Positions 5,401 to 51,191 of a stretch of 64,000 nucleotides of DNA are shown here, one piece after another. The stretch spans positions 186,001 through 250,000 of the forward strand of contig LNEB01000012.1 of NCBI GenBank assembly GCA_001464795.1. Direction: 5' to 3'. Source of the DNA: Bdellovibrionales bacterium Ga0074139 (GTDB taxonomy: Bacteria > Bdellovibrionota > Bdellovibrionia > Bdellovibrionales > Bdellovibrionaceae). The position numbers and the translations under genes are program-made. Position 1 is the first letter of the stretch, and the number at the start of each line of letters is the position of its first letter. The notes under the pieces were generated by a model. The model saw only the letters and a list, made by a program, of their open reading frames with translations. It made no database searches and had not been told where the DNA came from.

Positions 5401-6222
5401 ATGAATGATAAAAAATCTATCTTCTTTTTTTCAAACTATCGCTCTTTTTTAAAAAACTATCTCAAAGAACTACCTAAATCCCATGGAGTTTTAAAGGCCT
5501 GGGCTGAACATCTCAAAGTTCACAGCACTCTGGTCAGTCAGGTGATGATTGGTAAGCGCGACTTCACCGAAGAGCAAGCTCTTGAGTTAACTGATTTCAT
5601 CGGACTTGGTTCCTTAGAAAAAGATTATTTTCTAGAACTACTTCGCTTAGAAAGAGCAGGAACTCAAAATCTCAAAAAGTATTATCAAACTAAAATTAAA
5701 GACATAAGTACAAAAGCATTGAAACTATCAGAAAGAATCGAAGTCGAAAGAAAATTGACCGAGCAAGAAAGTGCCATATTTTATTCCTCCTGGATATATT
5801 CAGCCATTCGCTTGTGTTGCTCAATTGATGAAGGACTGACCATTGATGAAATTTCAGGTCTTCTTCAAGTGCCTAGGCCTCAAGTTCTAAGTGCGATTGA
5901 ATTTCTTCGTGAAAGTGGCTTTGTAAAACAAAATGGAGCCCGCTTTGAAATTGGCACTCAGTACACCCATTTAGGAAAAGGCTCACCTTTTCTGAATCGA
6001 CACCATGCCAACTGGAGAATTAAAGCTCTACAAAAATTGGATCATGTCACTGACCAAGAACTGATTTACACAGCCCCGTTTTCAGTTTCAGAAAAAGACT
6101 TTGCAGTCATCAGAGAACGAATGGTGAGTGTTATCCAAGAATTTTTGAAAACTGTTAAGGCCAGTCAAGGTGAAACAGTGGCTTGCTTTAATTTAGATTT
6201 ATTTAAAGTGATTGTTAAATAG
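5401..6222 (+). CDS. TIGR02147/DUF4423 family putative transcriptional regulator
   Basis: The 273-residue product matches the TIGR02147 family known from Bdellovibrio-like and Fibrobacter genomes. The N-terminal part (FFFSNYRSFLKNYLKELPKS, then KAWAEHLKVHSTLVSQVMIGKRDFT) resembles a helix-turn-helix. The middle carries the family's YSSWIYSAIR segment and a winged-helix-like stretch (ISGLLQVPRPQVLSAIEFL). The end is LDLFKVIVK. A paralogue lies at 15330 with the same C-terminal signature. Transcription is divergent from the ankyrin gene with a short shared AT-rich promoter. The family's biochemical role is not established; a regulator is inferred from the HTH-like parts. Confidence 0.8.
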   Translation: MNDKKSIFFFSNYRSFLKNYLKELPKSHGVLKAWAEHLKVHSTLVSQVMIGKRDFTEEQALELTDFIGLGSLEKDYFLELLRLERAGTQNLKKYYQTKIKDISTKALKLSERIEVERKLTEQESAIFYSSWIYSAIRLCCSIDEGLTIDEISGLLQVPRPQVLSAIEFLRESGFVKQNGARFEIGTQYTHLGKGSPFLNRHHANWRIKALQKLDHVTDQELIYTAPFSVSEKDFAVIRERMVSVIQEFLKTVKASQGETVACFNLDLFKVIVK

Positions 6223-9313: not shown

Positions 9314-9979
9314 TTAATCTTTGGACACAATTTTTCCATCAACCAGATGAATTTGTCTGGAGGCCATTTGTGCAAACAATGAATCATGGGTGACATAAAT
9401 AATGGTGGTCGCCCGTTCTTTATTAATACGAAGAAATAAATTCATAACAAGCTGTCCGTTAGCAGAGTCTAAATTACCTGTTGGCTCATCAGCGAAAAGA
9501 AATTTTGGTTTCATAACAAGGGCACGTGCGATGGCGACTCGCTGTTGTTCACCCCCTGACAGCTGGCTTGGCAAACGATCTGCTTTGTCTAAAATACCAA
9601 ATTCATTTAGTAGCTCATGAGCAAAAATTTTTCTATTTTTATCATAAGGGCATTTAAGTGTGGGCATCATGACGTTTTCAAGAGCTGTCAATTCCGGTAG
9701 TAAATGATGGAATTGAAATACAAATCCCATTTTTTGATTGCGGAACCTGTGTAATTCTTTTTGATCAATTTTTGAAATCGAAACATCATCCACTATGACT
9801 TCACCTGAACTCGGTTGATCGAGACTGCTTATAATATAAAGAAGCGTACTTTTCCCAGATCCTGATCTTCCAACAATAGACACCATCTCACCGTCTTGAA
9901 TAGTGCCAGAAATATTTTTTAAAACATTCACTGGGGGTTCACCAAAACTTTTATTAATTTGTTTCATGATAATCGACAT
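9314..9979 (-). CDS. ABC transporter ATP-binding protein (LolD/MacB type)
   Basis: The 221-residue ATPase has every core motif: Walker [10 protein letters not shown] (37-45), Q-loop near FQFHH (89), signature LSGGEQQR (140-147), Walker B FLFADE (160-165) and the switch His in VTHD (198). Length and sequence ([18 protein letters not shown]) fit the LolD/MacB/FtsE branch, which powers lipoprotein release or MacB-like export. It overlaps the end of the upstream permease gene, and a periplasmic adaptor is the first gene, so the three form one transporter operon. This arrangement points to a MacAB-like exporter rather than to importers. Confidence 0.93.
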
Positions 9980-12013: not shown

Positions 12014-12293
12014 TTTTTACCACAAAGGCCTTTTTTGATGAGAGAAGTGTTTCAACTGAAACTAAGTGCAATATCAAACCCACGATTACATAGTTCCTAT
12101 AGCATTTGATGGTTGCACTTGAGACAAAATGGCCAAAAAACCATCATTGATGTGACATTCTGTCCATTTGATTTAACGAGGCGTTGTGTTGTGGGAATTT
12201 TATTACGGGCAATATTTTGGAGGTGACGTCGGGTTATGAACAATTACGCGAGGTTATGTTACGCATACCATTGAAATGCCAATACTTAAAAAC

Positions 12294-12527
12294 CTAAGCA
12301 GCCTTTAGCTTTTTAAGACCATCAGCAATCAATAACCGCATCAAGACCTGATAAGGAATACCCTTAGCTTCAGCGATTTCTTTAAGTTCTTTGAGCATCT
12401 CTTCTTCCAAAGCGATACTTGTAGGTTTACGTCGTGCCCCTTTGAGGCGACTCAAACCTGCAATGATTTCCTTAGTGTCAAACTCAATTCGATCATAAGT
12501 TTTTAATCGTTTTACTGATTTCTTCAT
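12294..12527 (-). CDS. brnA: BrnA/CopG-like antitoxin
   Basis: Starting at the ATG at 12527 (preceded by GAGAGG), the product is 77 residues. The N-terminal part is basic, followed by a segment KPTSIALEEEMLKELKEIAEAKGIPYQVLMRLLIADGLKK, the ribbon-helix-helix pattern of CopG-like antitoxins (beta strand, helix, turn, helix). The gene overlaps the 3' end of the toxin gene by 35 bases. Toxin-first order is typical of brnTA operons, in which the antitoxin neutralises the toxin and represses the promoter. A longer reading frame upstream exists but lacks a ribosome site. Confidence 0.78.
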   Translation of the reverse strand: MKKSVKRLKTYDRIEFDTKEIIAGLSRLKGARRKPTSIALEEEMLKELKEIAEAKGIPYQVLMRLLIADGLKKLKAA

Positions 12528-20279: not shown

Positions 20280-21509
20280 TTACAGCGAAACATTCTTGTT
20301 AGCCTCCCGATAATCATAAAGACTGACCACTTTTTCCATGATCCCTTGATCGTTCGGGATGAAATCAAGCCCCTCAGTTGCTCCTCTCTCATCCACGCCA
20401 GCCAGCCGAATATAACGTTCAGCCGTCTTTAAATCTCTCCAACCACATATCTTCATAACAGTTGTAGAAGGAATCCCGCGCGAAATAAGATGAGTTGCAA
20501 AACAAGCTCTTAACGTATGAAAGCGAACTGGTGGAATTCCGATTTCTCGGCAAAATGCTCGAAGAACTTTTGCCTGATAACCTTCTTTCCAATGACTAAA
20601 ATGCGGCAGAACAAATTGTCCATGCTCATCCGAGCCAAAATTGTGCTGCTTCATTTCCATCAAGATCATGTAAAGCTCGCTTGAAACAGGAACATTGCGC
20701 CAGTATCTGGCCTTCAATGGTCCATATTTCTTCAGCTTCTTATTCCATGATCGCGTGAGTCTGATCAGCCCAAAGTTTCTTTCATGCGGCGGCAGAGCCT
20801 TTTGGCGTTGCGCTTCTTCTAAAGAAACCAAATCCATATCCTCGTGTCTTAAGCCGTACACTTCACCGTTTCGACAACCTGTTAAGATTGTGACCGCCCA
20901 GATCGGATACCATGGATGCTTTCGATCTTTTGCTTCACGAAGCAAAGTTTTAATTTGTTCGTGAGTCAAAATCTCTGGCAACTTTTCCGGTTCCTTTTTC
21001 GCCGTATCCAGTCCAAACACAGGACTATGATGAGGACCGATAATCAGCCTTTCATCAATACCCCAAAGATAGATCAGATTGATCACACTTTTTAGTTTTC
21101 GCTGATAAGACGAATTCTGACCAAGTTCAGCCGCTTGATTTAACAACAAGCGACCATCGCCACGAGTAATCTCTGAGGCTGGTCGCTTGAGCCAACTTTG
21201 CGTCCACTTTCGAGCAAGCTTAGCGTAATCCCAGACAGTTGATTTCGAGTAACGGTGTGAACCGTAAAGCTCGTGAAAATCAGACCATCGCTGAATGATG
21301 CTTTCCCAAGTAAAGCCTTGATTTTCAAGTCGAGCAATTTCAGAGGTGACTTGCACAAACTGAGTTCGCTCTTCTTTCTCGGCTTCTTTTTGAGATTTAA
21401 ACCCACCACGCATTCTTTGTAATCGAATCTGTGGATTTTTCTTGCTGCGGATATTGATATAATAGCGCCAAAATGTTTGACCATTTTCATAATAGGAAAA
21501 GACAGACAT
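20280..21509 (-). CDS. Tyrosine recombinase (integrase) of element A
   Basis: Starting at the ATG at 21509 (AAGGAGG 5 bases upstream), the protein has 409 residues. The catalytic domain carries Arg213 (TGCRNGEVYGLR), His331-x-x-Arg334 (FHTLRACFATHL), a Trp at the second-His position (GWRDLK, about 357) and the Tyr366 nucleophile (TAERYIRLAG). An Arm/SAM-like N-terminal part precedes it. It would insert and excise element A by site-specific recombination. It follows the excisionase-like gene by 11 bases and is related to integrase B at 50052 (shared RACFAT, TAERYIRLAG/TMQRYIRLAG, PIWA...TG.RNGE). Confidence 0.95.
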   Translation of the reverse strand: MSVFSYYENGQTFWRYYINIRSKKNPQIRLQRMRGGFKSQKEAEKEERTQFVQVTSEIARLENQGFTWESIIQRWSDFHELYGSHRYSKSTVWDYAKLARKWTQSWLKRPASEITRGDGRLLLNQAAELGQNSSYQRKLKSVINLIYLWGIDERLIIGPHHSPVFGLDTAKKEPEKLPEILTHEQIKTLLREAKDRKHPWYPIWAVTILTGCRNGEVYGLRHEDMDLVSLEEAQRQKALPPHERNFGLIRLTRSWNKKLKKYGPLKARYWRNVPVSSELYMILMEMKQHNFGSDEHGQFVLPHFSHWKEGYQAKVLRAFCREIGIPPVRFHTLRACFATHLISRGIPSTTVMKICGWRDLKTAERYIRLAGVDERGATEGLDFIPNDQGIMEKVVSLYDYREANKNVSL

Positions 21510-21520
21510 TGCTACCTCCT

Positions 21521-21799
21521 TTATGCCTCTGAGCACTCGATGAGATAGGAAAGTTCTTTTCGCTTGAAATACAGTTTACCTGAAAATTTACGTCTACGAA
21601 TTTTACCTTGAGAAACTAATTTGTGAATTGCATTCACTGAAGGAATTCCATTCGGACCAAATTTTCGCAAATAAACCGCTGCTTCCGCTGTAGATAACCA
21701 CTCCAAATTTTCAAAGAACAAATTACTTCTTGCCTCTGAATTTACCTCGTTTTCCTGGCTGTTTCCATTCCCTTTTCTCTCTCTTCTTACCTGTGTCAT
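21521..21799 (-). CDS. Excisionase-like helix-turn-helix protein of element A
   Basis: The 92-residue product has a charged N-terminal extension followed by a MerR/Xis-type HTH: WLSTAEAAVYLRKFGPNGIPSV, then HKLVSQGKIRRRKFSGKLYFKRKELSYLI. Such proteins bind att DNA and steer the integrase towards excision. Position just before the integrase gene supports that role. Element B has the same pair (51188 and 50052). The gene faces the candidate oriT region at its upstream end. Confidence 0.85.
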   Translation of the reverse strand: MTQVRRERKGNGNSQENEVNSEARSNLFFENLEWLSTAEAAVYLRKFGPNGIPSVNAIHKLVSQGKIRRRKFSGKLYFKRKELSYLIECSEA

Positions 21800-21828
21800 A
21801 TATATACCTATTCTTATAACACCTATCC

Positions 21829-21936
21829 CGCCCGCCGCCGTTGTACCGTCTTCCTGACCACTTACTACCGTTAAACATCTTTAGATGTAGGGAGTGAGTG
21901 GTCAGGAAGCTTCAGAGGGACAACCAGCGGCGGGCG
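21829..21936. other. Nested palindrome, candidate origin of transfer (oriT) of element A
   Basis: Three nested inverted repeats share one centre. The outer arms are CGCCCGCCGC...TTGT (21829-21844) and its near complement at 21920-21936. The middle arms are a perfect 13-bp CTTCCTGACCACT (21850-21862) with 21897-21909. The inner arms are ACATCT (21875-21880) with AGATGT (21883-21888). It lies in the only sizeable non-coding gap of the module, between the relaxase gene and the integration genes, where origins of transfer are usual. A role in attachment or as a regulatory RNA is also possible. Confidence 0.55.
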
Positions 21937-22016
21937 CATGGGGTTAATTGCTGAATTTGCTTGAGGAAAAATCAAAAAGTTGAAAGCAAATGTGTTTAAG
22001 TTAAAAACTGGTATAG

Positions 22017-22868
22017 CTACCAGTTTTTTAAGTCTTCGCTTCTGCGTTTTGGCCATTCCGTTGAGCCAAGATATCCACACCAATTTTTAAATGAAGTGGG
22101 TTTTCCACAAGAGTTAAAGAGTCGATTGAAATCCTCACCGCCACCATCCAACGAATCAGAAAACAGAAAAAAATTTTCTCCAAATCGTTTTTGTTTTTCA
22201 GAATCTGGCAGCAATTTATTTTGATAGAGCAGTCTTATCGTTTCTGATAACCGGCCTGAATCGCAAATATAAATAAGTCCATCTAATTGGGTTCGATCCA
22301 TATATTTACCTAGCTTTCGCAAAATTCTTTCGTCGCTCTTTCTAGTTCGTTCAATTTCGAAGGCGACGCACACAGTATGAGTCGATTCCGTTTTCGGAAT
22401 AGTCAGAATAAAGTCTGGTCGAAGATCGTAGTCTGCGTAAGCCAGATTCAAAACATTTTTAGCAAAAGAGTCGTTCCCAATTTCAATTTCCCTAGTGATG
22501 ATTGCCTCTGGAAACAATCTTTTGATTGTCACAATCCAATACTCACACCATTGATTGTGAAATAAATCTTGTTTCCGAATAAGTGGTTGCTTAAGAACAT
22601 CAGGCTGCTGATTCGAAAACTCAGCAGCCTTTAAGCGATCTGGCAAACTCTGTGAGACCATGTAGTAGGTCCCTTGGCTTGAATAATGAAACGATTCAAT
22701 AAATCCTTTTTTTGCAAGCAGCTGTAAACATTTTCGCAAGTTTCTCTTCGACATTTGCGACTTTATAATTCTAAAGAGCACATCAATCGTTAGTGGACCA
22801 GACTGCTGAACGGCCTTAAATACATCTTTTCCTTTTTGAGGTCGCTTCAAGGTCACAGACATCATCAC
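22017..22868 (-). CDS. MOBC-type relaxase (replication-relaxation family), element A
   Basis: The 283-residue product fits the Replic_Relax (PF13814) family that includes MOBC relaxases such as CloDF13 MobC. The N-terminal part is a winged helix (PLTIDVLFRIIKSQMSKRNL, then CLQLLAKKGFIES). The C-terminal part has a restriction-enzyme-like core: LRPDFIL (Asp152), then VAFEIERTRKSDERI (Glu171, Glu173). Relaxases nick oriT and lead the strand into the secretion channel. It overlaps the downstream end of the accessory gene (22865) by 4 bases. The homologue in element B is at 52194, with the same D...ExE spacing. Family assignment is by pattern; nicking is inferred. Confidence 0.75.
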   Translation of the reverse strand: MMMSVTLKRPQKGKDVFKAVQQSGPLTIDVLFRIIKSQMSKRNLRKCLQLLAKKGFIESFHYSSQGTYYMVSQSLPDRLKAAEFSNQQPDVLKQPLIRKQDLFHNQWCEYWIVTIKRLFPEAIITREIEIGNDSFAKNVLNLAYADYDLRPDFILTIPKTESTHTVCVAFEIERTRKSDERILRKLGKYMDRTQLDGLIYICDSGRLSETIRLLYQNKLLPDSEKQKRFGENFFLFSDSLDGGGEDFNRLFNSCGKPTSFKNWCGYLGSTEWPKRRSEDLKNW

Positions 22869-23179
22869 TCCATATTCTCCAACTGCATCTGACTTCGACT
22901 TGTCTTTTTAACTCCTTTGGATTTTAGATCCATCAATGCCTTAATTGCTGACTCAATATCGATCTCTTTTTGTGAAGCCATCAGTCTTAATGATTTTCTA
23001 ATATTTGTGTGCTTTGCCTGTAAGCCACGAATATCAATTTTTCCCGTGGAGATCAGTTCATTTGCCACATCAGAGTAGTTTATGGTTCCGTTTAAAAAAC
23101 CATCATTGGCTTCTTTAGTTAAATTCTCTAACGCCGTCCATGCTTCATCACTGAGGACGATCTGAATTTTCTTTTTCAT
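22865..23179 (-). CDS. Putative relaxosome accessory protein, element A
   Basis: The 104-residue product begins KKKIQIVLSDEAWTALENLTK, and continues DVANELISTGKIDIRGLQAKHTNIRKSLR. It resembles the product at 51504 in element B: both have a strand followed by DEAW/NSLIAVQ.L, a DV.NEL/DVVNFVL segment, and a helix LQAKHTNIRKSLR/LKLKHFDLVKALR. Both sit directly between a lipoprotein gene and the relaxase or its neighbours. The strand-helix-helix start suggests ribbon-helix-helix DNA binding, which suits an oriT-binding partner. It overlaps both neighbours by short ATGA-type junctions. Confidence 0.55.
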   Translation of the reverse strand: MKKKIQIVLSDEAWTALENLTKEANDGFLNGTINYSDVANELISTGKIDIRGLQAKHTNIRKSLRLMASQKEIDIESAIKALMDLKSKGVKKTSRSQMQLENME

Positions 23180-24317: not shown

Positions 24318-24487
24318 ACATCCAAGTCTGTGTTTTTGTCTTTAGGAACAGCGACCTTTTTGTTCTCTTCACCATTTATTTTTCTCATCAAATCTTCTGG
24401 AGGCGGCTGATTACCAAGCTCTTTAAGTCGTTTAGACCACTTTCGAGCGGCTCCTTTTTTAGGGTAATTAATCTTCTTTTGTTCCAT
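24314..24487 (-). CDS. Small hydrophilic protein coupled to the PIN gene
   Basis: Starting at the ATG at 24487 (AAGGAGG 5 bases upstream), the product is 57 residues: MEQKKINYPKKGAARKWSKR, then ELGNQPPPEDLMRKING and an acidic end. It is highly charged with no signal peptide. Its stop overlaps the start of the PIN gene, the usual layout of an antitoxin before its toxin. No antitoxin family is recognisable by sequence. Confidence 0.55.
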   Translation of the reverse strand: MEQKKINYPKKGAARKWSKRLKELGNQPPPEDLMRKINGEENKKVAVPKDKNTDLDV

Positions 24488-24557
24488 AAAGTCCTCCTTT
24501 TCTATTAGTTTTAACATATGCAAATTCGCCGTCTAACCACCCGTAACTGCTATACAA

Positions 24558-26039
24558 TTACACTTTGCGTAGTTCCGGAAATCGGATCTTAAAGACGCTA
24601 GAAGCCCCATGGGGTGTCTCTTGCCCGTGGGCTACAAGGACTGCACCTACACCTGTAGGCAAAGTCTTCAGCAAGTCAGGAGACGCTCTAAACTGGTGGG
24701 CATCCCGAGTGGTTCCTTCACCGACGATTTCAGCCGAATCAATTTCTTTAGCGTTCGTGATCCTTTGGGTTGTTTTCTGAATTTCTTTGGTTCCAAAGCA
24801 GCGCGAAAAAAATTCTGCCGAATCTGGATCGTTAATGCGCAAAACAATTTTTGTAGCTGCGTTGTCCGTGATTCGATTTAAGAACCCCTGTGATACCTCC
24901 ATAACATCTCCGATACTTTGATGCGAAAAATGCAATGCAAATTTCGCAGAACGAGCTTTTGAAATAAGATCCGCAAATTCAGGACAGGCAAAAGTCGCAA
25001 ACTCGTCAAGATAGACTGGAACGAGTTCTCTTGGTTTAGCCTGTCCTCGTTCCCTATGCGCCGTTCCGGCCAAAAAATTTAAATGGTTAATAATAAGTTT
25101 TCCAACAATCCCGACAATTTGTGGTGACATCAAGCTCTGCAATCTAAAATAGATCACTTTGCCCTCGGTAGCAGTTCCAAGATCAATACTCGGTTTTTCA
25201 TTAGGTGAGAGAATTTGGCTGAGATGTCCTAACGACAGTGATTTGACCTGATCTCTAAGGCCAGATAGATCTTGATAATCTTTAATTGCCAATGCCTGAG
25301 GAAAGTCTTTGCTATTCACAAATGATGAATATGATTCTGGGGTTTCTAAGATTTTTGAAATTTGTGCGAGATTCGGATTTTTTTCATTCAGATCAAAATA
25401 ATTCTGAAAGATTCTTTGAAGCGACGAGAGCGCTTTTGATTTGTAATACTCTTCACTCCAAGTCAAAGATGAAAAAAGTCTCTGCGCCGATTCCAGTGCA
25501 GATCCGGCAGCAAGTGGGTCATAAGCTTCAGATCCTGAATCCGTCAGATCAAAAACATGAAGTCTATCGTTTGGCACCCAAGTCTGAAGAGCTTCTAAAA
25601 ACGAATTATCACCTTTGGCGTCTAAAATAATGCTACCCAAACCTCGGGCAACATCTTGTCGTAGAAAATTGAGAATGACACTTTCCGTTTTTCCAGATCC
25701 AGTCGCTCCAAGGATGTGTACGTGACGAGTTCGAATCGAATCTGGCAAATAAATCATTTCATCAAGTTCCGTATCTAGTCCCATTTGGACAGCGTCTTGA
25801 GAAACACTTCTCAAGCTTAGTGGGACTTCTTGAACTCGCTCGATACGCTTTAAATCTTCTTTTCCCCATGCAGAAAAGTATCGAACCACAAGAAGTAAAC
25901 CTAATACTAAAAAACCAGACAGAACCAAGACGAACATAACCAAATCAATGCCGCGAAGTTCAGAAATAGTTTTATAGACCCACAGTCCGACAAGTCCAAA
26001 TGGAAGAAGCAACAAAGTAGAATAGTTTTGATCTTTCAT
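24558..26039 (-). CDS. VirD4/TraG-type coupling ATPase, element A
   Basis: The 493-residue product has two N-terminal membrane helices (LLLLPFGLVGLWVY; VMFVLVLSGFLVLGLLLVV). Walker A is GATGSGKTE (111-119), followed by SIILDAKGD and Walker B VYLDEFATF (Asp345-Glu346); a downstream HFSHQSIGDV segment is typical of the TraD/TraG/VirD4 group. It would bring the relaxase-DNA complex to the channel at the inner membrane. In element B the same position is taken by an FtsK/SpoIIIE-type ATPase (53080). The start directly follows the VirB10 stop with a one-base overlap. Confidence 0.92.
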   Translation of the reverse strand: MKDQNYSTLLLLPFGLVGLWVYKTISELRGIDLVMFVLVLSGFLVLGLLLVVRYFSAWGKEDLKRIERVQEVPLSLRSVSQDAVQMGLDTELDEMIYLPDSIRTRHVHILGATGSGKTESVILNFLRQDVARGLGSIILDAKGDNSFLEALQTWVPNDRLHVFDLTDSGSEAYDPLAAGSALESAQRLFSSLTWSEEYYKSKALSSLQRIFQNYFDLNEKNPNLAQISKILETPESYSSFVNSKDFPQALAIKDYQDLSGLRDQVKSLSLGHLSQILSPNEKPSIDLGTATEGKVIYFRLQSLMSPQIVGIVGKLIINHLNFLAGTAHRERGQAKPRELVPVYLDEFATFACPEFADLISKARSAKFALHFSHQSIGDVMEVSQGFLNRITDNAATKIVLRINDPDSAEFFSRCFGTKEIQKTTQRITNAKEIDSAEIVGEGTTRDAHQFRASPDLLKTLPTGVGAVLVAHGQETPHGASSVFKIRFPELRKV

Positions 26040-28486: not shown

Positions 28487-29157
28487 CGAACTGTTCCTTT
28501 TCTTAAAACGACATCTGAAAACTGCGAATCTTTCTGACTTAGGTTGACCGAAAACGACTTAAAGGATGATCCACGTGTAACTACAGACCGAGTCTCACGT
28601 TCGTTCCCCTCAGCAAGCATTTGTGCGAGTAAACTTGTAATATGACTTTGAATAACCTGGGATTGGGATTCTAGTGCGATCAATGTTCCCACACCAGACG
28701 CTGTCAATTTCTGTGCAACCCCTGGCGAGGCATCGGCACCTCGACGTTCCATTTCTTTACCAGATTTAAAGGTTGTAGCTGTTTCTGGCCCGACACGAGC
28801 AACTAAATTCATTGCTTTGGCGAGTTCACTTTCGATTTGGTCATATTTTTCGGAACGATACTCTTTTGGCATTGTGTGATATACAATTCTCAACCGATTC
28901 ACAGCTTCACGAGGGTCTTTCCACTTATCCCACTCAGAAGGCTGAACAACCTCTGCAATTGTTCTTATACGATCAATGCGATCTTTGATCCCGCGCATTT
29001 CATCGTTCATAAGTTCACTTTGTCGTTGCAGCTCATACATTGTGTGCAGAGTGTTCGTTACGATTTGGGCCAGTAATGGAAGATCACCACCAAATAAGTC
29101 AGCCTTAGCTGAAAATGGCAATAAACTAAAAGAGCAAATCAAAAATAAATTTTTCAC
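28483..29157 (-). CDS. VirB5/TrbJ-like pilus-tip protein, element A
   Basis: The 224-residue product has a signal peptide (MKNLFLICSFSLLPFSAKA) followed by DLFGGDLPLLAQIVTNTLHT and a long helical body (ELQRQSELMNDEMRGIKDRI). The DLFGGD start, helical body and SPGVAQKLTASGVGTLIALESQS segment are shared with the product at 57265 in element B (SPGGAQKLTAQTLGVMLQVMNQS). The type fits TrbJ/VirB5, a minor pilin. It lies directly after virB4 in both elements. Confidence 0.8.
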   Translation of the reverse strand: MKNLFLICSFSLLPFSAKADLFGGDLPLLAQIVTNTLHTMYELQRQSELMNDEMRGIKDRIDRIRTIAEVVQPSEWDKWKDPREAVNRLRIVYHTMPKEYRSEKYDQIESELAKAMNLVARVGPETATTFKSGKEMERRGADASPGVAQKLTASGVGTLIALESQSQVIQSHITSLLAQMLAEGNERETRSVVTRGSSFKSFSVNLSQKDSQFSDVVLRKGTVR

Positions 29158-31217
29158 GCCGTTTCCTTTCTGATTGATATGTTTTCTGTGTTTGCAAGCT
29201 TGTAAAACTCAGGAGTTGGATAAAGTCGAAAAATTTGACTCATCGTAGGGCTCAGCGCAAAAAACTCTGAGTAAAGTGGCTTTTTAGAAGTCACTGACAA
29301 AGCCCTAGAAATATCTGAATCAGGTAAATCAAAGGTTTGCTTTAAGAACTCAGCGGCTGCTCCATTTTGCAAAAATATTTTTGTAAAGCTGTTTGTAAAG
29401 ATCATCTTTGCAAAAGCTTCGTCGCCGTAGTCAGCTAAGTTTTGTGTGATTGATACAATCCCAGCTTTGTATTTTCTAAGCGTTCGATACATCTCTTCCA
29501 AAAAACTTTTACTTTGAGCGAAGAATCTCCAAACTTCGTCAAAGACGATTAAAGTTCTTGGATAAGTACCCTTGAGTAAATCCCCCCATAGCAACTCGGA
29601 TAATAGTAATATTGTTGTTCTTTGTAGGACTGGGTCCGAATCCAATTCCTTGAAGTCAAATGCAGTCACTTGTGCACCAATGACTGACTGCAAGTCTTCA
29701 CGGATGGGCACTTGGTCCAGCTTTAAATGGGGCTTCAACCAATGGGCTACGTCTTGATAAAACCTCTCGGGCTTTTCACTCGCAAGCCGAATGAGTTCGC
29801 CAAGCTTCAGCTCTGTGCCTTCGACATGGCGAAGAAGATCGTCGATGGCCACTCTATGCGAATGAGTAATATGACTTCCAGATCCGCACAAGGTTTCAAT
29901 AAAGGTTCTGTAAAAACCCGAACCATTCACTGGCCGTAAACGGAGAAAGCTAGCAAGCAGACCATGAGCCTCTTCAACAGTTAAGAGCTGGCTTTTACCT
30001 CCGTTAGTTTCAATAATCCTTCGATAAGATCCACCAATATCAAAAATGCAGAGACGTGTTTTAGGCTCATCTTTTAGCATCGATGAAAGAATCGCATTCA
30101 TCAAAAAGCTCTTCCCAGAACCTGAGGCTCCACAAATGAACGAATTAAAATTCAAGTTCTCTTTTGAGAACAAATTCAAATGCGAAACCTCGTTACTTCG
30201 GGATTTTAAAGCTAAATGTGATTCATCATTTGATCTGGAATAGTCGTGAATTAAGGGAAGGATATGGGCTAGATTCTCTGAAAGGATCGGAAGTTTTCTG
30301 ATTCCTAGAATCTTACCCCCAGGAAGATGGCTTGCCATAACTGGTAAAGATCCTAATCCTTCAGGATACAGTCCGGCATTACCAATACCAGAAACAACTC
30401 TTTCAAAATCATTAGCTTGATCTAAGGTTTCTTGGTCAGAACCTGATACAGTCAAACCAACTGAAATTTCGAAAAGCGTTTCCTTATCGACAAGAATACG
30501 CTCAAGAGTTTCCTCCGAAGAACTCAAAACTGAATTCGATTCAATATTTTTAACTTCAAGTGAACTCGTCACCGATAAGGCATGACTGACCCTGCGTTTG
30601 GTTTCGAGCTGGTTTTTAATTTTCTTTCGATCTGGAATTTGAATCTTAATACTTAAAGTAAACGAAGCTTCACTTTCAAATACTGGCTGCAAACATCCTT
30701 TCCAAGTCACTTGAGGTAGCTCAGTCAAAGACAAAATCCTAACGACCTTGCCATTTGCTTTGATTGAATCTTTGTCCCAAACAATATCTGGCAATCCATT
30801 TTTTAAGATTGGCTCGCCAAAAATAGCAGAAAGATAGAGTTTCCAAGTACTTTCTGTAAGGGGCGTGGACACAATTTTTAATTCACTCAATACCGCTTGT
30901 AAGTGCGAATAGCTTTCTTCTTTTTTCACCTTCTCAAAAATTAAAATCTTGGACTTGAGACCAGAAATTTCATGTTCAATTGAATGGCGAAAGACTATGA
31001 TTTGCCCGTCAAAATAATTTGGCAGCCTAGATAGCAACTCGGATAATTTCTGAAAGAATCCATCGGCCAACGGACCTTCTAAGTTTTCTTCAAAGAGCCC
31101 CGTTGATAGAGGTTCCATTTCAAAAGCTTTGTAAATAGAACCTTCATTGGATTCGATAATTCCTTCAGAAATCCACTTTGATTGAATTATCGTCTTACTT
31201 AAAGAGTATTTTCTCAC
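29154..31217 (-). CDS. VirB4/TraC/TrbE-type secretion ATPase, element A
   Basis: The 687-residue product has a long N-terminal domain and a C-terminal AAA-type motor with Walker A GASGSGKSF (about 362-370) followed by MNAILSSML, CIFDIGGSYRRI, and Walker B TLIVFDEVWRFF (about 557). The segment IVSITQNLADY is typical of VirB4. It powers channel and pilus assembly at the inner membrane. Shorter than the element B copy (802) because the N-terminal domain is reduced. Overlaps virB5 and virB3 genes by 4 bases each. Confidence 0.93.
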   Translation of the reverse strand: MRKYSLSKTIIQSKWISEGIIESNEGSIYKAFEMEPLSTGLFEENLEGPLADGFFQKLSELLSRLPNYFDGQIIVFRHSIEHEISGLKSKILIFEKVKKEESYSHLQAVLSELKIVSTPLTESTWKLYLSAIFGEPILKNGLPDIVWDKDSIKANGKVVRILSLTELPQVTWKGCLQPVFESEASFTLSIKIQIPDRKKIKNQLETKRRVSHALSVTSSLEVKNIESNSVLSSSEETLERILVDKETLFEISVGLTVSGSDQETLDQANDFERVVSGIGNAGLYPEGLGSLPVMASHLPGGKILGIRKLPILSENLAHILPLIHDYSRSNDESHLALKSRSNEVSHLNLFSKENLNFNSFICGASGSGKSFLMNAILSSMLKDEPKTRLCIFDIGGSYRRIIETNGGKSQLLTVEEAHGLLASFLRLRPVNGSGFYRTFIETLCGSGSHITHSHRVAIDDLLRHVEGTELKLGELIRLASEKPERFYQDVAHWLKPHLKLDQVPIREDLQSVIGAQVTAFDFKELDSDPVLQRTTILLLSELLWGDLLKGTYPRTLIVFDEVWRFFAQSKSFLEEMYRTLRKYKAGIVSITQNLADYGDEAFAKMIFTNSFTKIFLQNGAAAEFLKQTFDLPDSDISRALSVTSKKPLYSEFFALSPTMSQIFRLYPTPEFYKLANTENISIRKETA

Positions 31218-37534: not shown

Positions 37535-37569
37535 AGATAAAGCTTTTGAAACATTATAAAGCTTTATCT
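37535..37569. other. 12-bp inverted repeat over the end of the NtrC-type gene
   Basis: AGATAAAGCTTT (37535-37546) and its complement (37558-37569) flank an 11-base loop. The second arm contains the last codons of the response-regulator gene. It could form a transcript-end hairpin, but no T-run follows on the minus strand. Confidence 0.4.
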
Positions 37570-38954
37570 CCTGCATGAAAAGCATGCTTACGTCTCTCGT
37601 TGACCAGCCCTAGTTCTTTGGCTCGCCGAAAGAACGTAGCTCTAGACATATTCAAAATCTGAGCAGCTTTAGTTCTATCACCCGACGAATCTACCAATGC
37701 TTTTTGAAATCGTTTACGTTCCTGTGAAATTGGCGTATGTCCGAATTTACCCATTACATGAAGGGCCTGCTTCGGGGTAAACAGTTTTGATAAATCTGGA
37801 ATTGCCTGACAAACATCTTTTTCTCGGATCACTTTGTTGTCACAACGATAAACCATCATTTCAATAACAGATTCAAGCTGCCTTACATTTCCTGGCCAAT
37901 GATATGAAAACAGAAGATCGATCGCTTGTGGAGTTATTGTGTATTCATTTTTGAATCGAGACGAAAGAAAAAAGACTACAAGCTCTGGGATGTCTTCCAA
38001 CCGTTCCCGCAGGGGAGGAATCCGAATCGAAAATTTTGCTATTCGGTAATACAGATCTTCACGGAACTTTTTGTCCATGACTGCATTTTCAAGATTTACA
38101 TGTGTCGCAGAAATACTTTTAAAACTAACATGTCGCTCTTCTGTTGATCCAACACGTTGAACTTTTCGCTCTTGAAGAACACGCAAAAGCTTTGCTTGTT
38201 GATGCATTGGCATATCACCAATTTCATCTAAGAAGACAAAACCACCTTGTGCTGCCTCAAAAGCACCAATTCGATCTCTATCGGCGCCGGTAAATGCGCC
38301 CTTAACGTGACCAAACAGTTCCGATTCTGCAATTCCGTCATTGATAGCTCCGCAATGAACTGGGAATAGTCTAGTCGCTGAATCAGCAAGTTCTGCGATT
38401 GACCTAGCAACAACCTCTTTACCAGTTCCAGTTTCGCCTTGAATCAAAATATCTTTAATTCCCATCTTAGCGGCCTGATGAATATCTGATTTCAATTTAA
38501 TAACCGAAGCGGATGATCCAACTAAAAGCGTTCCTTTTTTTGAGGTCGAAAGAATGGCATCTCTGCGCAGTTGTCTTTTCTTTAAAGTTGATAAAACAGC
38601 TTCTCTGATTTCACTTAAATTTGCAGGCTTAGGAATGAAATGAGTAATTCCTGAATTCATTATTTCAATAAGCCGCTTAGGGTCGGTCTCGCCACTGATG
38701 ATTATAACGTCAACCTCAGAGTCTTTAGCCATTATTCGTCGGAAAACATCAAGACCGGTTCTGCGATCACCGACAAAGTTTAAATCCAGCAATACGACAT
38801 CGTAAAAGATATTTTCAATTGCAATCAAACCTTGGTCGATGTTTGCATAGGAATGAATTTCGAATCCCAAATCTTCAAAAACAAGTGGGATCTGCTCGAG
38901 CCAAGTGGCATCGTCATCAAGGGCTAAAATCTTAGGAGTTCTATCTTTAATCAT
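37554..38954 (-). CDS. NtrC-family sigma-54-dependent response regulator
   Basis: The 466-residue product has three domains. The receiver has Asp57 as the probable phosphate acceptor (VVLLDLNF) and Lys109 (FIPKPAN). The AAA+ domain has Walker A GETGTGKE (173-180), GAFTGA (219-224) for contact with sigma-54, and Walker B VFLDEIGD (240-247). The C-terminal part is a Fis-type HTH (DRTKAAQILNMSRATFFRR). It activates sigma-54 promoters from upstream palindromes. It overlaps the kinase gene by 4 bases. Operator-like palindromes at 32489 and 41839 are the candidate binding sites. Confidence 0.95.
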   Translation of the reverse strand: MIKDRTPKILALDDDATWLEQIPLVFEDLGFEIHSYANIDQGLIAIENIFYDVVLLDLNFVGDRRTGLDVFRRIMAKDSEVDVIIISGETDPKRLIEIMNSGITHFIPKPANLSEIREAVLSTLKKRQLRRDAILSTSKKGTLLVGSSASVIKLKSDIHQAAKMGIKDILIQGETGTGKEVVARSIAELADSATRLFPVHCGAINDGIAESELFGHVKGAFTGADRDRIGAFEAAQGGFVFLDEIGDMPMHQQAKLLRVLQERKVQRVGSTEERHVSFKSISATHVNLENAVMDKKFREDLYYRIAKFSIRIPPLRERLEDIPELVVFFLSSRFKNEYTITPQAIDLLFSYHWPGNVRQLESVIEMMVYRCDNKVIREKDVCQAIPDLSKLFTPKQALHVMGKFGHTPISQERKRFQKALVDSSGDRTKAAQILNMSRATFFRRAKELGLVNERRKHAFHAGDKAL

Positions 38955-40237
38955 ATTAAAGCCTGCTTAGGAATTTTAACTTCAAACTTAGCTCCGCCTA
39001 GTTCAGAAGATCGGCTGATAGCAATTTCACCCTTATGAGCTTCTATAATTTTTTTTGAAACCAAAAGACCAAGCCCAGAACCATGTGGCTTACTACTTTT
39101 TAAAGGGCGTATAGTAGATTCCGAGTAAGAGGGAAGCCCTGCCCCTGAATCTTCAACGACAACACCAATAAAATCTTTGTTCTCTAGATTGAAAGAAACT
39201 TGAATACTTTTTTTATCAGAAGCATTTGATTCCACGGCCTCAAAAGCATTTTTAATAATATTTGTGAAGACACGTTCGACCTGAATTGGATCGTGATTCA
39301 CTAGAACTTCTTGATTCGGGTTTTGAAAGCTTAGTTGAATGTTTTTGGCAACCGGCAGACTCTGGCTAGTTTCAAGTGACTTCTTAAGCGTATCGACTAA
39401 GCTTAAATTCCTTTGTTGAACGGAAATCTCGCGACTACCGTCAAGCGCCGTCTGAACAATTGAAAGTAATGAGGGAAGCTTTTCGCTACTGACTTTAAGC
39501 AAATTTTTGTAACGAGTCTCAGTTGGAGCTTCCTTCGCTAAATCGGTTGCAATTTGTAGCGATTGCAGAATGGTTTTAATATCGTGGATAACGCCTCTTG
39601 CAATTTGGCTATAGACGGACTGTTCCCGCTCCTGGAATGAGGTATTTAGTTTCTGAGAGATTTCCTGAATTTCAATGGGCCAATCCGAAGAAATTGATTT
39701 TTCGCCGGTGGAGGTGTCGACTAAAGATTCAATGGGGCGAACCAAATATTTACGAAAGTATCGTGTTTGAAAATAAAGCCCACTTCCTGCAAATAGCCCT
39801 ATGAGACACACGCTTATAAGCAAGTTTCCTAATTTAAAATAATACCAAATATCGCGCTTTGGAGTTGCTATTAACACAGAATACTTATCTTCCAAAAACG
39901 GCATTTTCACTTGAGAATAAGCAAAGCTATTAAGTCTTGGGATTTTTCGAATATCTTCATCTGATCCAAACCGTACATCCGACAAATTCAATTCGATTTG
40001 CAATTGAGACGCAACTGCATCTGGTGAACCTCGCGGAGCCAAAAGCAGCTCACTAGAAAGTCGTCGAGCAACAATTAGAGTTTTTGAATCTAGCTCGCTT
40101 TGAATAAGATTAAGTTCGCTCCGGTAGTTGTAAAAAGCAAAAAGAGAAAACAAAAACAAGCTTGCAACCAATGCGGTCCCGCCGGACATCATCCAAGAGG
40201 CATTTATGATTTGTTGGAGCTTTCTTCTTTGTTTCAT
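38951..40237 (-). CDS. Membrane sensor histidine kinase
   Basis: The 428-residue product has two membrane helices (TALVASLFLFSLFAFYN; LLISVCLIGLFAGSGLYF) around a periplasmic loop of about 100 residues, then an HAMP-like linker. The dimerisation region has His217 (ARGVIHDIKTILQ) and the catalytic domain has the N-box (NAFEAV, about 330), DSGAGLP and GSGLGLLVS (about 386). It phosphorylates the co-encoded NtrC-type regulator. The adjacent periplasmic binding protein (40239) could present the signal. Confidence 0.92.
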   Translation of the reverse strand: MKQRRKLQQIINASWMMSGGTALVASLFLFSLFAFYNYRSELNLIQSELDSKTLIVARRLSSELLLAPRGSPDAVASQLQIELNLSDVRFGSDEDIRKIPRLNSFAYSQVKMPFLEDKYSVLIATPKRDIWYYFKLGNLLISVCLIGLFAGSGLYFQTRYFRKYLVRPIESLVDTSTGEKSISSDWPIEIQEISQKLNTSFQEREQSVYSQIARGVIHDIKTILQSLQIATDLAKEAPTETRYKNLLKVSSEKLPSLLSIVQTALDGSREISVQQRNLSLVDTLKKSLETSQSLPVAKNIQLSFQNPNQEVLVNHDPIQVERVFTNIIKNAFEAVESNASDKKSIQVSFNLENKDFIGVVVEDSGAGLPSYSESTIRPLKSSKPHGSGLGLLVSKKIIEAHKGEIAISRSSELGGAKFEVKIPKQALI

Positions 40238-42322: not shown

Positions 42323-44974
42323 ATGTCCGTGAAACTTGCTTCACTAATTATTGAATACGCTAAAGAACTTCCTCCTTGGCAAAAAATATTGGCCAAGGCT
42401 GCTTTTGAGCATCTAGGTGATCTTAGCCATGCAAAAGAAATTGATATAGCGGTTTCTCGCTTTCTCAAAGATTCTGGAGTGCCTGTCTTAAATGAAAACG
42501 CTGGAGATAGTGAGATCTCGTATATCGACTCTCTTCAGACAGAAGCTACCGAAGGCCGTTCCGTAGTCCCGCGACTCATTGAAATTTCAGAGTATAAGAA
42601 CGTTAATGCTCTTTCGGATGGGCAGAAGATTACTTTTGCCCCGAAGCTTACAATTATCTATGGAGAAAATGGCGCAGGAAAATCTGGCTATAATCGTGTT
42701 TTGAATACGGCTTTCTACTCCAGAGGCGATAAAAACATTCTGCCCAATATTTTAAAACCAAAAAATGAACAAGGAACTCCAACTGCAAAATTTGAATTTG
42801 AGATCAATGGTGCAAAACAAGTAAGATCATATCCAAACGAAATATCTAAACCTGAGTTTAAACAATTCGCATGCTTTGACTCTAAAACTGTTCCTGCGCA
42901 TGTTGGCGAGTCAAATGAGTTGTATGTTCTTCCAAAGGAGATGGAATTCTTTGATAAGTTAGCCAAGCTTATTGAACTTGTGAAAACTCGTATTCAAAAT
43001 GCTATTAACGAAAGAAACAAGCCAAATGAGTTCCAAAGATTTTTTGATGGTGAAAGTTTATTAAAGGAAGAGATCAAAGCAATCAATGCAAGTTCTGAAT
43101 ATATCAAAATTTCTGCGGTAGGATTAAATCAAAATCAACTTAAAAGTGATTTAGAGAAGCAAGAGAAAGAACTCAATGCGCTCAGGGCAACTGATCCTAA
43201 AAAGAAAATAGCAGAGTTGAAACTGGCTATCTCTGAATGTGATGATTACGCCAAAACAATCGCGGAGGGGCTGACTAAATGCGGAGTTGATGCAAATCAA
43301 TCTATTCAACAAGCATTAGACGCGTGGAAAAAGGCAGAGGAAAACGTCAAGAAGTCTGGTGCAGAGTCCTTTAAGACAGAATTAATAAAAACCGTCGGTT
43401 CTAGCAAATGGCGACAATTCATAATTGCAACTTCTGAATTAGCTAAAGAAGAAGGAGCAGTTCTTAGTCGACAATTTCCTTCGAATGGTGACTCTTGCCC
43501 TTTATGTTTACAAAAGTTGGAGAAAGATGCTCTTGCCCTGTTCGGCAGATACTTTGAGTTTCTTGGTGGCCAAACGGAGAAAGACCTTACAGCAACAAAA
43601 ACAACCCTAAAGAGTTTGGCACAAAAATATGGTCTCGCGCCTACAACTATCGTTTCTAAGCAAAATCTTTCTAAATGGCTTGATGAAAATAATGCCCAAT
43701 TAAAGTCTGAACTTTCTAAAACAGAGGAAACCATTAAAGAATTTTTTACTTTGGCTAGGGAACGAATTGAGAAATTTGACTTAACTTCCTTAGCTCCAGT
43801 GCAAACAGAAGGCATCACAGAAAAGCTCGCCTTAATTAAAAGCAGTCTTGAGGAATCAATTAAAACATTTGATGAGGCTACATTTACTAAGAAACAACAA
43901 GACTTAGGCGAAGCTGTCTTGCTGCTCAAGCATCAGGTAAAATTTTTAGAACTTGCTTCTGAAATTGAGAAATATATCAAGATTCAAAAATGGATTTTAG
44001 GCGCATCTGCTGCAATCAAGACAATTAACCCTAGACCCGTCACAGACAAACAGAAAAAAATATTTAATGAATATTTCACCAAAGAATATCAACAGAAGTT
44101 CTTTCAAGAAGCTCAAAAACTGCATGTGAATTTTAAAATTGATATAAAAGCTGAGGGGCGAGCTGGAAAAAGCTTGAGAAAGCTGGATGTTTTTAATCAC
44201 TCGCCAGCGGATGTTTTGAGTGAGGGTGAACAACGAGCTATAGCTCTTGCCGACTTCTTAACGGAAATCGAGATATGCAATCTCAAAGGTGGGATCGTTT
44301 TCGATGATCCCGTAAACTCCCTGGATCACGAGCGAAAACTTTATATTGCTAGTCGCTTAGTCGAAGAATCAAAGCGCAGACAAGTTGTTATCTTCACTCA
44401 CGATGTTAGTTTCCTATTTGATTTAATAAATGAGGCTGAGAAGCAAAAGTTTAAAGCGAAAGACGATTATCTTTGCCATTGGATTTCAAAAATTGATGAT
44501 AGCATCGGCTTGGTACACCTAAATCACAGAAGAGATTTAGAATTGGATTATAAGACCCATGCTAGAGCTGAAGAACTTTGGCAGCAAGCTCGCAGTGAAA
44601 CCGTTCCCGATAAAAGAGAGCTTTTAAGCAAGCAAGGATTTGATTGCTTGCGCCGTACCTATGAGGCTTTTACTCTTATCGAGCTATTTGGAAATACTGT
44701 AAGAAGATTTGATCGTCAAATTGGACACGGAACTTTGAAAGATGTTTACTGCCCTAGAGATGTTGCTGATTTCGTCAGTAACAAACTCAAGACTTGTTCG
44801 GGGTATGTCACAGGGCATTTACAAGCCGATGGCTATTCAGGCCAGCTTGCTAGTCCTGAACTTTTAAAGCAAGAAATTGATGCTTACATCAAATTTTCAA
44901 AAGAATATAAAGAACGCAAAGAAGCAGATAAAAATCAGGCAGTAGCAACACAAGAGGTACGAATATTGTCGTAA
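42323..44974 (+). CDS. Coiled-coil AAA/ABC-type ATPase (RloC/PrrC-like), putative defence protein
   Basis: The 883-residue product has an ABC-type ATPase split by a long coiled coil. Walker A GENGAGKSG is at 114-122, helical arms are roughly 210-560, and a CPLC motif (about 391) is like a zinc hook. The second half has the signature LSEGEQR (about 631), Walker B GIVFDDPVNSLDH (about 656) and the switch His in FTHD (about 691). This is the SMC/Rad50/RloC plan. The C-terminal region has RRTYE, but a full anticodon-nuclease R-x3-E-x7-H motif is not present. GAGGGAG precedes the ATG. The next gene encodes a nuclease-like protein, so it may be the sensor-motor of a two-component defence system. 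Confidence 0.85.
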   Translation: MSVKLASLIIEYAKELPPWQKILAKAAFEHLGDLSHAKEIDIAVSRFLKDSGVPVLNENAGDSEISYIDSLQTEATEGRSVVPRLIEISEYKNVNALSDGQKITFAPKLTIIYGENGAGKSGYNRVLNTAFYSRGDKNILPNILKPKNEQGTPTAKFEFEINGAKQVRSYPNEISKPEFKQFACFDSKTVPAHVGESNELYVLPKEMEFFDKLAKLIELVKTRIQNAINERNKPNEFQRFFDGESLLKEEIKAINASSEYIKISAVGLNQNQLKSDLEKQEKELNALRATDPKKKIAELKLAISECDDYAKTIAEGLTKCGVDANQSIQQALDAWKKAEENVKKSGAESFKTELIKTVGSSKWRQFIIATSELAKEEGAVLSRQFPSNGDSCPLCLQKLEKDALALFGRYFEFLGGQTEKDLTATKTTLKSLAQKYGLAPTTIVSKQNLSKWLDENNAQLKSELSKTEETIKEFFTLARERIEKFDLTSLAPVQTEGITEKLALIKSSLEESIKTFDEATFTKKQQDLGEAVLLLKHQVKFLELASEIEKYIKIQKWILGASAAIKTINPRPVTDKQKKIFNEYFTKEYQQKFFQEAQKLHVNFKIDIKAEGRAGKSLRKLDVFNHSPADVLSEGEQRAIALADFLTEIEICNLKGGIVFDDPVNSLDHERKLYIASRLVEESKRRQVVIFTHDVSFLFDLINEAEKQKFKAKDDYLCHWISKIDDSIGLVHLNHRRDLELDYKTHARAEELWQQARSETVPDKRELLSKQGFDCLRRTYEAFTLIELFGNTVRRFDRQIGHGTLKDVYCPRDVADFVSNKLKTCSGYVTGHLQADGYSGQLASPELLKQEIDAYIKFSKEYKERKEADKNQAVATQEVRILS

Positions 44975-45042
44975 AGATACTTTGGTAATGGTCGAGCTAG
45001 TAAAATGGCTCTTTAAGCAATGTGAATATGAATCGAGGTAGT

Positions 45043-45843
45043 ATGAATTTGGTTGAGTACCACAAAAGTATTGGAAGAGAGCTTTTGGATGTCAAAAATC
45101 GTTTTAGGGACTTAATTGGGGACCAATACCACCGCTTAGCAGACGGTAAACATAAAGAGTCTATCCTGAAAACCATTTTGCAGCGCCACTTACCAAAAAA
45201 CATCAGCGCCAAAAATGGATTTATTAGATTCGATGACATTTCTATTTCAAGTGAGATAGACATTTTACTTTTCTCGAATGACAGGCCATTGCTTTTTGAA
45301 AACTCCGACCTGGTGATCTCTACGCCCCATGCTGTATTTGGTGGGATAGAAGTCAAAACAACATTAACAAGCAGCAATCTTACTGAATCACTAGAAAAAG
45401 TAGCGATTAATTTACAAAATACATCTGAACATTTAGACAAGGCATATTGGTCAGATCTCCATACAACAGTGCAGTCAATGTCAAAAGGGATATCTAGGAG
45501 TTACCCTTGGTTTTCCTTATTTGCATTCGAGAGCAATGTTTCTGATGAAATCGTTCTTAACCGGCTAAATGAAGTTGCAAAAGGAGATTATAGAAGAGCG
45601 ATACCATGCGTCTGTCTAGGCCCAAATAAATTTGTACGATTTTGGTCAGAGCATCGCAAATCTATTACAGATACAAACCCATTCACAGGTTGGAGAGTTT
45701 ATGATTTAAAGGGGCTTGCCTTTTCTTATTATATTTCAAATATGATTTGGCAAGACCACGTAAATTCAACTGAAACAAACCCCTGGTTTGCGCTTGAAAG
45801 TAAAGAAATAGAAATGGTGCAAGAATTACCTTTTAGCAAATGA
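45043..45843 (+). CDS. DUF6602 family protein, nuclease-like
   Basis: From the ATG at 45043 (GAGG upstream) the product has 266 residues and starts MNLVEYHKSIGRELLDVKNR, followed by IGDQYHRLADGKHKESILKT, both DUF6602 marks. A restriction-like core is visible: SSEIDILLF (Asp about residue 71), DLVISTPHAV and GGIEVKT (Glu-x-Lys, about 103-105), the D...ExK arrangement of PD-(D/E)xK nucleases. DUF6602 itself has no proven role. It follows the AAA gene by about 70 bases and is probably in the same transcript; nuclease function is inferred. Confidence 0.72.
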   Translation: MNLVEYHKSIGRELLDVKNRFRDLIGDQYHRLADGKHKESILKTILQRHLPKNISAKNGFIRFDDISISSEIDILLFSNDRPLLFENSDLVISTPHAVFGGIEVKTTLTSSNLTESLEKVAINLQNTSEHLDKAYWSDLHTTVQSMSKGISRSYPWFSLFAFESNVSDEIVLNRLNEVAKGDYRRAIPCVCLGPNKFVRFWSEHRKSITDTNPFTGWRVYDLKGLAFSYYISNMIWQDHVNSTETNPWFALESKEIEMVQELPFSK

Positions 45844-50051: not shown

Positions 50052-51191
50052 TTAATTTTGATTGGCTGGAGCGAAGAGATTTACCACCTCGCCCATTACA
50101 ATTCGATCTGGCAGAATCTTCAAATTTTCGGTTGCCCCCGAAATTTCGATACCTGCTAAACGAATATAACGCTGCATTGTTTCCAAGTCCTTCCACCCGC
50201 AGATCTTTTGAATCTGGATGGCTGGAATTCCCTGACGGATCAGTTGGGTGGCAAAGCAAGCTCGTAAGGCATGAAACCTGATGCTCGGTATTCCAATACT
50301 GGCACAAAATGCCCTCAGTTCTCTAGCTTGATAGCCCTTATTCCAATCTCGAATTCTAGGTAAAACAAATGGGCTTCCATTTGATTTCAACTTTAATTCT
50401 TTCAGAAGGTTCTCAAGCTCTGAAGAAACCGGAATATGTCGCCAGTAACCAGCTTTCGTGCACTTTGTGGTTTTGGTTCGCTTGTTATACGACTTTGACA
50501 AGACAATAACTTTATTCTCCAAATCAACATCGTCCCAAAGTAGCGCATAGATCTCGCCATTACGCATACCTGTTAAAAGTGCAAACGCCCAAATTGGATA
50601 CCACTTGTGGTCCATCTCTTTTGCTGCATACAGAAGCTTTCTAATTTCCGAAATCGTTAAGATCTCAGGAGGTTTTTCTTCTTCCTTTTGAAACTTAAGT
50701 CCTGCCGTAGGCAAAATCGGCATGCCCTTAATAAGATGTGCTTCGATTCCGTACTGAAATATCTTCGTCAATATAGACTTAATTTTAATTTGATGGGGAA
50801 CTCCCACTACCGAAGAAATCTCAATAAATGCTTCTCTCACATCGACAGGGGTAATACCTGAAGCTTCGCGTTTCATCCAACCTTGAGTATGCTTACGAAT
50901 CGTAGCTACATAATCAGCTTTAGTTTGCGCAGTCATTTTGTTGGATAAATCCATTCGCTGATGCATTTCAAACTTTTCAAGTAGCTCGTTCCAACTAATC
51001 CCTTTCGACTCTTTTATAAGTAGTTCGCGTTCACATTCTCGAATAAGCTGAAGCTCCATTTTCTTTGCTTGGGCTTCAGTCTTTACACCTTTAGATCTTT
51101 TCTGAATGCGCAATCCAGTTTGCTGGCTTCTAACATTGACATAGATTTTCCAGCATTCTTCGCCATTCGAATCTAGATATTTTTCAATCAT
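50052..51191 (-). CDS. Tyrosine recombinase (integrase) of element B
   Basis: From the ATG at 51191 (GGAGG upstream) the product has 379 residues. Catalytic residues: Arg210 (TGMRNGEIYALL), His307-x-x-Arg310 (FHALRACFATQL), a Trp at the second-His position (GWKDLE, about 333) and Tyr342 (TMQRYIRLAG). It is clearly related to the integrase of element A, with the same unusual GW in place of the second His and the same C-terminal spacing, but the two are diverged. It would mediate insertion of element B. It overlaps the excisionase-like gene by 4 bases. Confidence 0.95.
   Translation of the reverse strand: MIEKYLDSNGEECWKIYVNVRSQQTGLRIQKRSKGVKTEAQAKKMELQLIRECERELLIKESKGISWNELLEKFEMHQRMDLSNKMTAQTKADYVATIRKHTQGWMKREASGITPVDVREAFIEISSVVGVPHQIKIKSILTKIFQYGIEAHLIKGMPILPTAGLKFQKEEEKPPEILTISEIRKLLYAAKEMDHKWYPIWAFALLTGMRNGEIYALLWDDVDLENKVIVLSKSYNKRTKTTKCTKAGYWRHIPVSSELENLLKELKLKSNGSPFVLPRIRDWNKGYQARELRAFCASIGIPSIRFHALRACFATQLIRQGIPAIQIQKICGWKDLETMQRYIRLAGIEISGATENLKILPDRIVMGEVVNLFAPANQN

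Follow-up and report, generated by a model that had tools for sequence, protein, structure and literature searches.

Is the long palindrome beside a predicted MOBC relaxase gene in this 64,000-nucleotide stretch of DNA (the window) the origin of transfer (oriT) of an integrative and conjugative element (ICE)? Few classes of relaxase are as poorly understood as MOBC. The first-pass annotation had proposed an oriT from three nested levels of pairing, one of them a perfect 13-bp arm pair. All three levels were found at 21829-21936, read in the minus-strand sense, which is that of mobC, and the 13-bp core is indeed perfect (CTTCCTGACCACT at 21850-21862 with AGTGGTCAGGAAG at 21897-21909). We consider it very probable that this site is the oriT of an ICE with a MOBC-family relaxase. 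Its parts and the evidence for each are as follows.

21829-21936, minus strand: putative oriT hairpin, a three-level palindrome (fold z-scores, score with covariance model R1, relatives)
21829-21851: outer arm on the xis side, partner of 21914-21936 (complementarity)
21914-21936: outer arm on the mobC side (complementarity)
21850-21869: inner core arm with the predicted nic, minus 5'-GTAAGTG/GTCAGGAAG-3' (near-invariant columns, CloDF13 alignment)
21890-21909: inner core arm pairing with 21850-21869 (complementarity)
21858-21859, minus strand: predicted nick between 21859 and 21858, AAGTG/GTCAGG (CloDF13 alignment, ICEKp1 nic, presumed CloDF13 nic)
21863 and 21896: conserved mispair, C.A on the minus (sense) strand and T.G on the plus strand
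21875-21888: apical hairpin ACATC-TTTA-GATGT (fold)
21910-21919, minus strand: asymmetric internal loop, minus CCCTCTGAAG, between the outer and inner stems (fold, relatives)
22003-22028, minus strand: separate terminator-like inverted repeat of 11 bp at the mobC 3' end (repeat search)

The inner arms (21850-21869 and 21890-21909) are 90% complementary across 20 nt and the GC-rich outer arms 74% complementary when ungapped, a value improved by a bulge. Folded as RNA, the plus strand reached -74 kcal/mol compared with -38.9 +/- 3.7 for shuffled sequences (z -9.6, 0/200), and no other 120-nt segment of the 64-kb window folded with lower energy. The minus strand also folded better than its shuffles (z -7.0). 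The plus strand is thus the better folder, which leaves room for an antisense RNA or for the other strand as substrate. With R1, a covariance model described below, the site scored 138.4 bits on the minus strand (21822-21944) and 53.4 bits on the plus strand.

The palindrome occupies part of the 217 bp that separate a MobC-like gene from an HTH_17/tyrosine integrase pair (20280-21799), all of these genes reading leftwards. This stretch had been called the only sizeable non-coding gap of the transfer module; the gap is real but the claim slightly overstated, as about 240 bp also lie between called ORFs at 24318-24557. The genes that bear on the oriT reading, all on the minus strand, are listed here.

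20280-21536, minus strand: tyrosine integrase (PF00589, E 6.9e-17)
21521-21799, minus strand: excisionase-like gene separated from the hairpin by 30 bp (HTH_17 domain)
22017-22868, minus strand: MobC-like (MOBC) relaxase with a MarR-like winged helix and a PD-(D/E)XK-like nuclease domain (motif, predicted fold)
22865-23179, minus strand: small protein with no assigned function (homologues in relaxase-less elements)
24558-26039, minus strand: VirD4/TraD-type coupling protein (PF12696, TIGR03743)
29154-31217, minus strand: VirB4/TraC-type T4SS ATPase (TIGR02746, E 7.7e-38)

The MOBC assignment of the 22017-22868 protein stands on its motif and predicted fold, even though curated models scored below cut-off. 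Its sole NCBIfam match was NF041423 (E 6.6e-4, below cut-off), and curated MOBC models gave 19 bits against a cut-off of 200 and 12.4 against 25.3. Relatives matched NF041423 in 14 of 17 cases, the best at 1.4e-10, and the relative at locus L017 matched PF13814 at 4.7e-4, again below cut-off. P151, D152, A169, E171, E173, K177 and R181 are invariant, giving a PD-(D/E)XK motif with ExE-x3-K-x3-R spacing; the conserved Arg is followed by Ile182 in the window protein and by Tyr in most relatives. TraX, the MOBC protein of pAD1 (Enterococcus), reportedly combines a MarR-like N-domain with a PD-(D/E)XK C-domain and is said to conserve D152, E170, E172, K176 and R180. This architecture is that of the predicted window relaxase and, compared by description, its E-E-K-R spacing equals E171/E173/K177/R181. 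The AlphaFold model (pLDDT 86.4) likewise predicts a winged-helix N-domain, close to MarR (Z 10.5, rmsd 2.6, 75 aligned), and a restriction-endonuclease-like C-domain which, modelled alone, resembled BsaWI (Z 8.9, rmsd 3.8, 152 aligned), BstEII (Z 8.6), PaqCI, FokI and BamHI. MOBC relaxases are members of the PD-(D/E)XK superfamily (PMC12857230). Searches of viral_contigs for relatives of the window MobC, and of plasmids for relatives of the MobC at locus L062, returned none.

Across related genomes the hairpin was linked to this gene. A MobC-like ORF lay directly 5' of the hairpin in 51 of the 67 loci examined, on the same strand in all 51, with a gap of 19-388 nt from the MobC 3' end in 50 loci and an overlap in one. 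At loci L070, L075 and L077 the distance was about 380 nt instead of below 100 nt. In class-wide lists, 60 of 101 matches lay just 3' of a same-strand MobC gene and none just 3' of one on the opposite strand. Conversely, the class held 63 MobC-like genes with E<1e-40: a listed hairpin lay downstream of 45, another 13 gained one with filters off, four were cut by a contig end and one, a partial MobC match, lacked it. The hairpin was hence present at 58 of 59 testable genes, a reverse test that is not fully independent because the MobC profile was trained partly on hairpin-adjacent genes. When another collection, with some contigs in common, was searched from MobC alone, 6 of 13 loci had a complete hairpin and two more a partial one. 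The order upstream was conserved as VirB6-VirB8-VirB9-T4CP (coupling protein)-MobC-hairpin. As expected of a MOBC-type oriT, 21829-21936 is non-coding DNA beside a relaxase gene in a transfer region.

We then considered what is conserved in the hairpin itself. By DNA search, 7 of 60 related genomes proved to carry similar sites, and R1 was built from 8 sites aligned in the mobC sense, two of which have outer arms of wholly different sequence that still pair. R1 matched 51 of 141 genomes at order level, 54 of 144 at class level and 83 of 369 at phylum level (Bdellovibrionota), compared with 0 of 115 gammaproteobacterial controls. Named records with the hairpin family belong to Bdellovibrionota (Bdellovibrionaceae, Bdellovibrionales, Oligoflexia). 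One further record, L112 (CALQIT020000006.1), is titled Streptomyces griseus; its contig gives the same match as one from a genome placed in the window's family, and the label looks wrong. Among 51 non-redundant sequences (<80% alike), standard pairs filled 93.5% of cells, compared with 36-47% when the pairing was slid, and two-sided changes occurred at 31 of 36 pairs, compared with 14-20 when slid. Outer-stem positions showed up to four pair types in these relatives. By contrast, the inner core AAGTG/GTCA was nearly fixed, and the mispair at 21863/21896 stayed C.A on the sense strand in 48 of the 51. The internal loop (21910-21919) kept CCCTC together with a variable insert. The arms are thus maintained through pairing and not through sequence, so that the compensatory change in related elements that the first-pass annotation proposed to look for came out in favour of an oriT. 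Paired outer arms, a fixed core and the C.A mispair together point to a folded molecule with strand identity, and linkage to the relaxase leads us to take that molecule to be DNA rather than RNA.

A role as RNA between the transfer and xis-int operons (terminator, attenuator or antisense) would also fit strong covariation, and the mispair reads T.G on the plus strand (G.U in RNA), where wobble pairs number 49 compared with 19 on the other strand. Such a role is nonetheless extremely unlikely. An Rfam scan of the window gave no match to a known structured RNA, no U-run follows the hairpin and the terminator-like repeat at 22003-22028 is a separate element. The hairpin is also kept where mobC is missing upstream, where the downstream genes vary and, at L017, where xis-int is missing, and the sequence identity of the core far exceeds what pairing needs.

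The remaining 16 of the 67 loci carried the hairpin with no MobC neighbour, 'relaxase-less' here meaning lacking a MobC-like ORF. All 16 hairpins were followed by an integrase on the same strand, which NCBIfam models assigned to 4 tyrosine integrases and 12 large serine recombinases. Between the relaxase-less locus L099 and the ICE at L072, similarity was limited to some 222 bp surrounding the hairpin (85%; about 97% for the hairpins alone), so the cis signal that they share must be within this stretch. In other pairs, for example L065 and L057, identity was confined to the 47-bp inner core. Contig 8 of the window genome holds a second hairpin, in 2.3 kb that matches a sister-species ICE at 98% and lacks its transfer genes. 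Judged from their sequences, these carriers look as mobilizable islands imitating a helper oriT would be expected to look. Integrative mobilizable elements that have an oriT and no relaxase and are moved by a helper have been described as iOriT (PMC11389934); the 16 loci fit that concept, and would presumably depend on helpers in the same way. Homologues of the small 22865-23179 protein adjoin the hairpin in some relaxase-less elements, which makes it a candidate oriT accessory protein. At locus L107 three hairpins of the family lie within about 6 kb (6095-6203, 9481-9586 and 12194-12306). Serine recombinase sequences are found near them; these are perhaps tandem relaxase-less islands.

The same loci bear on whether the palindrome is instead an attachment or excision-control site read by the integrase and excisionase, a reading suggested by its position 30 bp upstream of xis and by the integrase gene that follows nearly all hairpins. 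An attachment site would go with a single integrase class and, on integration, be divided between the element ends. Near-identical hairpins, however, were found with a tyrosine integrase (L089, L090, L095) or a large serine recombinase (L091, L098), and this switch of integrase class while the hairpin stays argues against an att site. The distance from hairpin to integrase varied from 225 to about 2600 nt, and at L017 the hairpin lies beside MobC with no adjacent integrase. In integrated elements the hairpin is intact, flanked by mobC and int, and so is not the crossover site. We therefore give this reading next to no probability. Conservation restricted to an att function, which the first-pass annotation had named as evidence against an oriT, was not what we saw: the hairpin follows a relaxase gene or stands alone whilst integrase class changes. 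Conservation beyond an att function thus joins the compensatory arm changes in support of the oriT reading.

Comparison with known MOBC origins provided a candidate nick site. The annotation had described MOBC origins as poorly described, which is partly right, although nic sites have been described for CloDF13, pAD1 and ICEKp1. With filters off, R1 gave one clear match in CloDF13 (9957 bp), the MOBC prototype and a mobilizable plasmid of E. coli/Klebsiella, at 9643-9789 (28.7 bits, E 3.5e-6), in non-coding DNA upstream of the mobilization genes. The model aligned GGGTGGTCGGG of CloDF13, which we take to be its nic, with AAGTGGTCAGG of the window, whose partner in the CloDF13 alignment reads GGGTGGTCGG; the inner core arm 21850-21869 was aligned with GTGGGTGGTCGG. 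The string GGGTG/GTCGGG, presumably the CloDF13 nic, occurs once in that plasmid, within the inner arm of the hairpin. Both sites have outer arms and an asymmetric left insert with a mini-hairpin, share the inner stem TGACCACCC.../...GGGTGGTC, and are non-coding sites in a mobilization region with mob genes 5' of the hairpin. They differ in gene orientation, the CloDF13 mob genes being directed away from the hairpin and mobC of the window into it, and there is no relatedness in sequence outside the core. In ICEKp1 (MOB class C1) the nic listed in OriTDB is GGTTG/GTCGCG (PMC7755788 Table A3); comparison with this MOBC oriT is of the nic sequence alone. Together, the CloDF13 alignment and the ICEKp1 nic predict cleavage of the minus strand between 21859 and 21858, and AAGTG/GTCAGG is, on sequence grounds, the most likely nick position.

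The window thus has a nic-like TG/GTC core in a large inverted repeat. In oriT2 of pAD1, nic is likewise said to lie within a large inverted repeat. Structural homology to established MOBC mobilization regions was found for CloDF13 and for the relative pXHKP6-2, a plasmid typed MOBC by PLSDB (32.4 bits), with 0 of 115 controls matching. The pAD1 site differs in having direct repeats, 70-120 bp away from nic, to which TraX binds (PMC12857230); none stood out at the window site in an unsystematic look. Another relative, pYR8, scored 33.1 bits, with a similar score on both strands; an ORF of pYR8 first taken as a MobC candidate proved to be DotA/TraY-like. The plasmid pSTEC2018_166-d has a layout like that of the CloDF13 hairpin and a weak R1 score (12.9). 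In this 5.6-kb E. coli plasmid (L181), 2370-2610 is a diverged CloDF13-type hairpin whose core, GGTTGGTCACG, is near the ICEKp1 nic.

Single-strand origins (sso), as in ICEBs1, are likewise strong hairpins near relaxase genes. The hairpin of the window lies 3' of the relaxase gene and could be such an sso, or a termination or second-strand signal, with the oriT proper elsewhere in the element. We judge this to be very unlikely, as the core can be aligned with the nic of MOBC origins and an sso read by host enzymes would need no near-invariant 10-nt core. Furthermore, if L099 is mobilized by such an ICE, its oriT must lie in the roughly 222 bp that it shares with L072.

Taking 21829-21936 as the oriT, a mechanism can be proposed. 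The 22017-22868 relaxase would recognise the inner hairpin core and nick the minus strand within the core arm, at 5'-AAGTG/GTCAGG-3'. Entry into the recipient would then begin with the 3' side (xis-int) and end with the mobC/tra genes, a proposed polarity that resembles CloDF13, where mob genes are likewise on the 5' side. The long outer arms may allow a cruciform to form, or a hairpin in the single strand that is transferred, and folding could serve recognition or the re-joining of ends after transfer. Relaxase-less elements with the same site would be mobilized in trans.

MOBC oriT as a kind is already known. The phylum-wide family, its relaxase-less carriers and its structure-based conservation appear undescribed in the literature searched. 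On balance we lean towards a wider view, in which MOBC origins would belong to a single ancient superfamily, found both in chromosomal elements of Bdellovibrionota and in enterobacterial plasmids. It would be defined mainly by folded shape, with a near-invariant nic-bearing inner hairpin and outer arms that vary freely and always pair. The relaxase would read the site in folded form, as a cruciform or single-stranded, and relaxase-less islands of predatory bacteria would make up a large hidden network whose members move by copying this site. About 100 covarying sites, together with the predicted nick and a mispair that marks the strand, make DNA recognition by MOBC relaxases directly testable. 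R1 may also serve as a search tool for transfer origins and dependent relaxase-less elements in a predatory phylum whose gene exchange is little described.

Some other features of the window were also noted. A second transfer module lies downstream at 50052-63878, with its own integrase, FtsK-like coupling protein, VirB4 and a PF13814-like relaxase (52194-53087). No hairpin of the R1 family was found in the region of this relaxase with filters off, so the oriT of the second module should be of another type. A comparison of 19.0-20.4 kb with 48.6-52.2 kb for direct repeats of at least 14 nt, as att sites of tandem elements, gave none. Near the first transfer module, 37554-40237 encodes a sigma-54-dependent response regulator and a histidine kinase, which may be cargo of the element. 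At 42323-45843, a large AAA_13 ATPase gene and, just after it in the same orientation, a gene of 273 aa lie on the strand opposite to that of the transfer genes; this pair is possibly defence cargo of the element.
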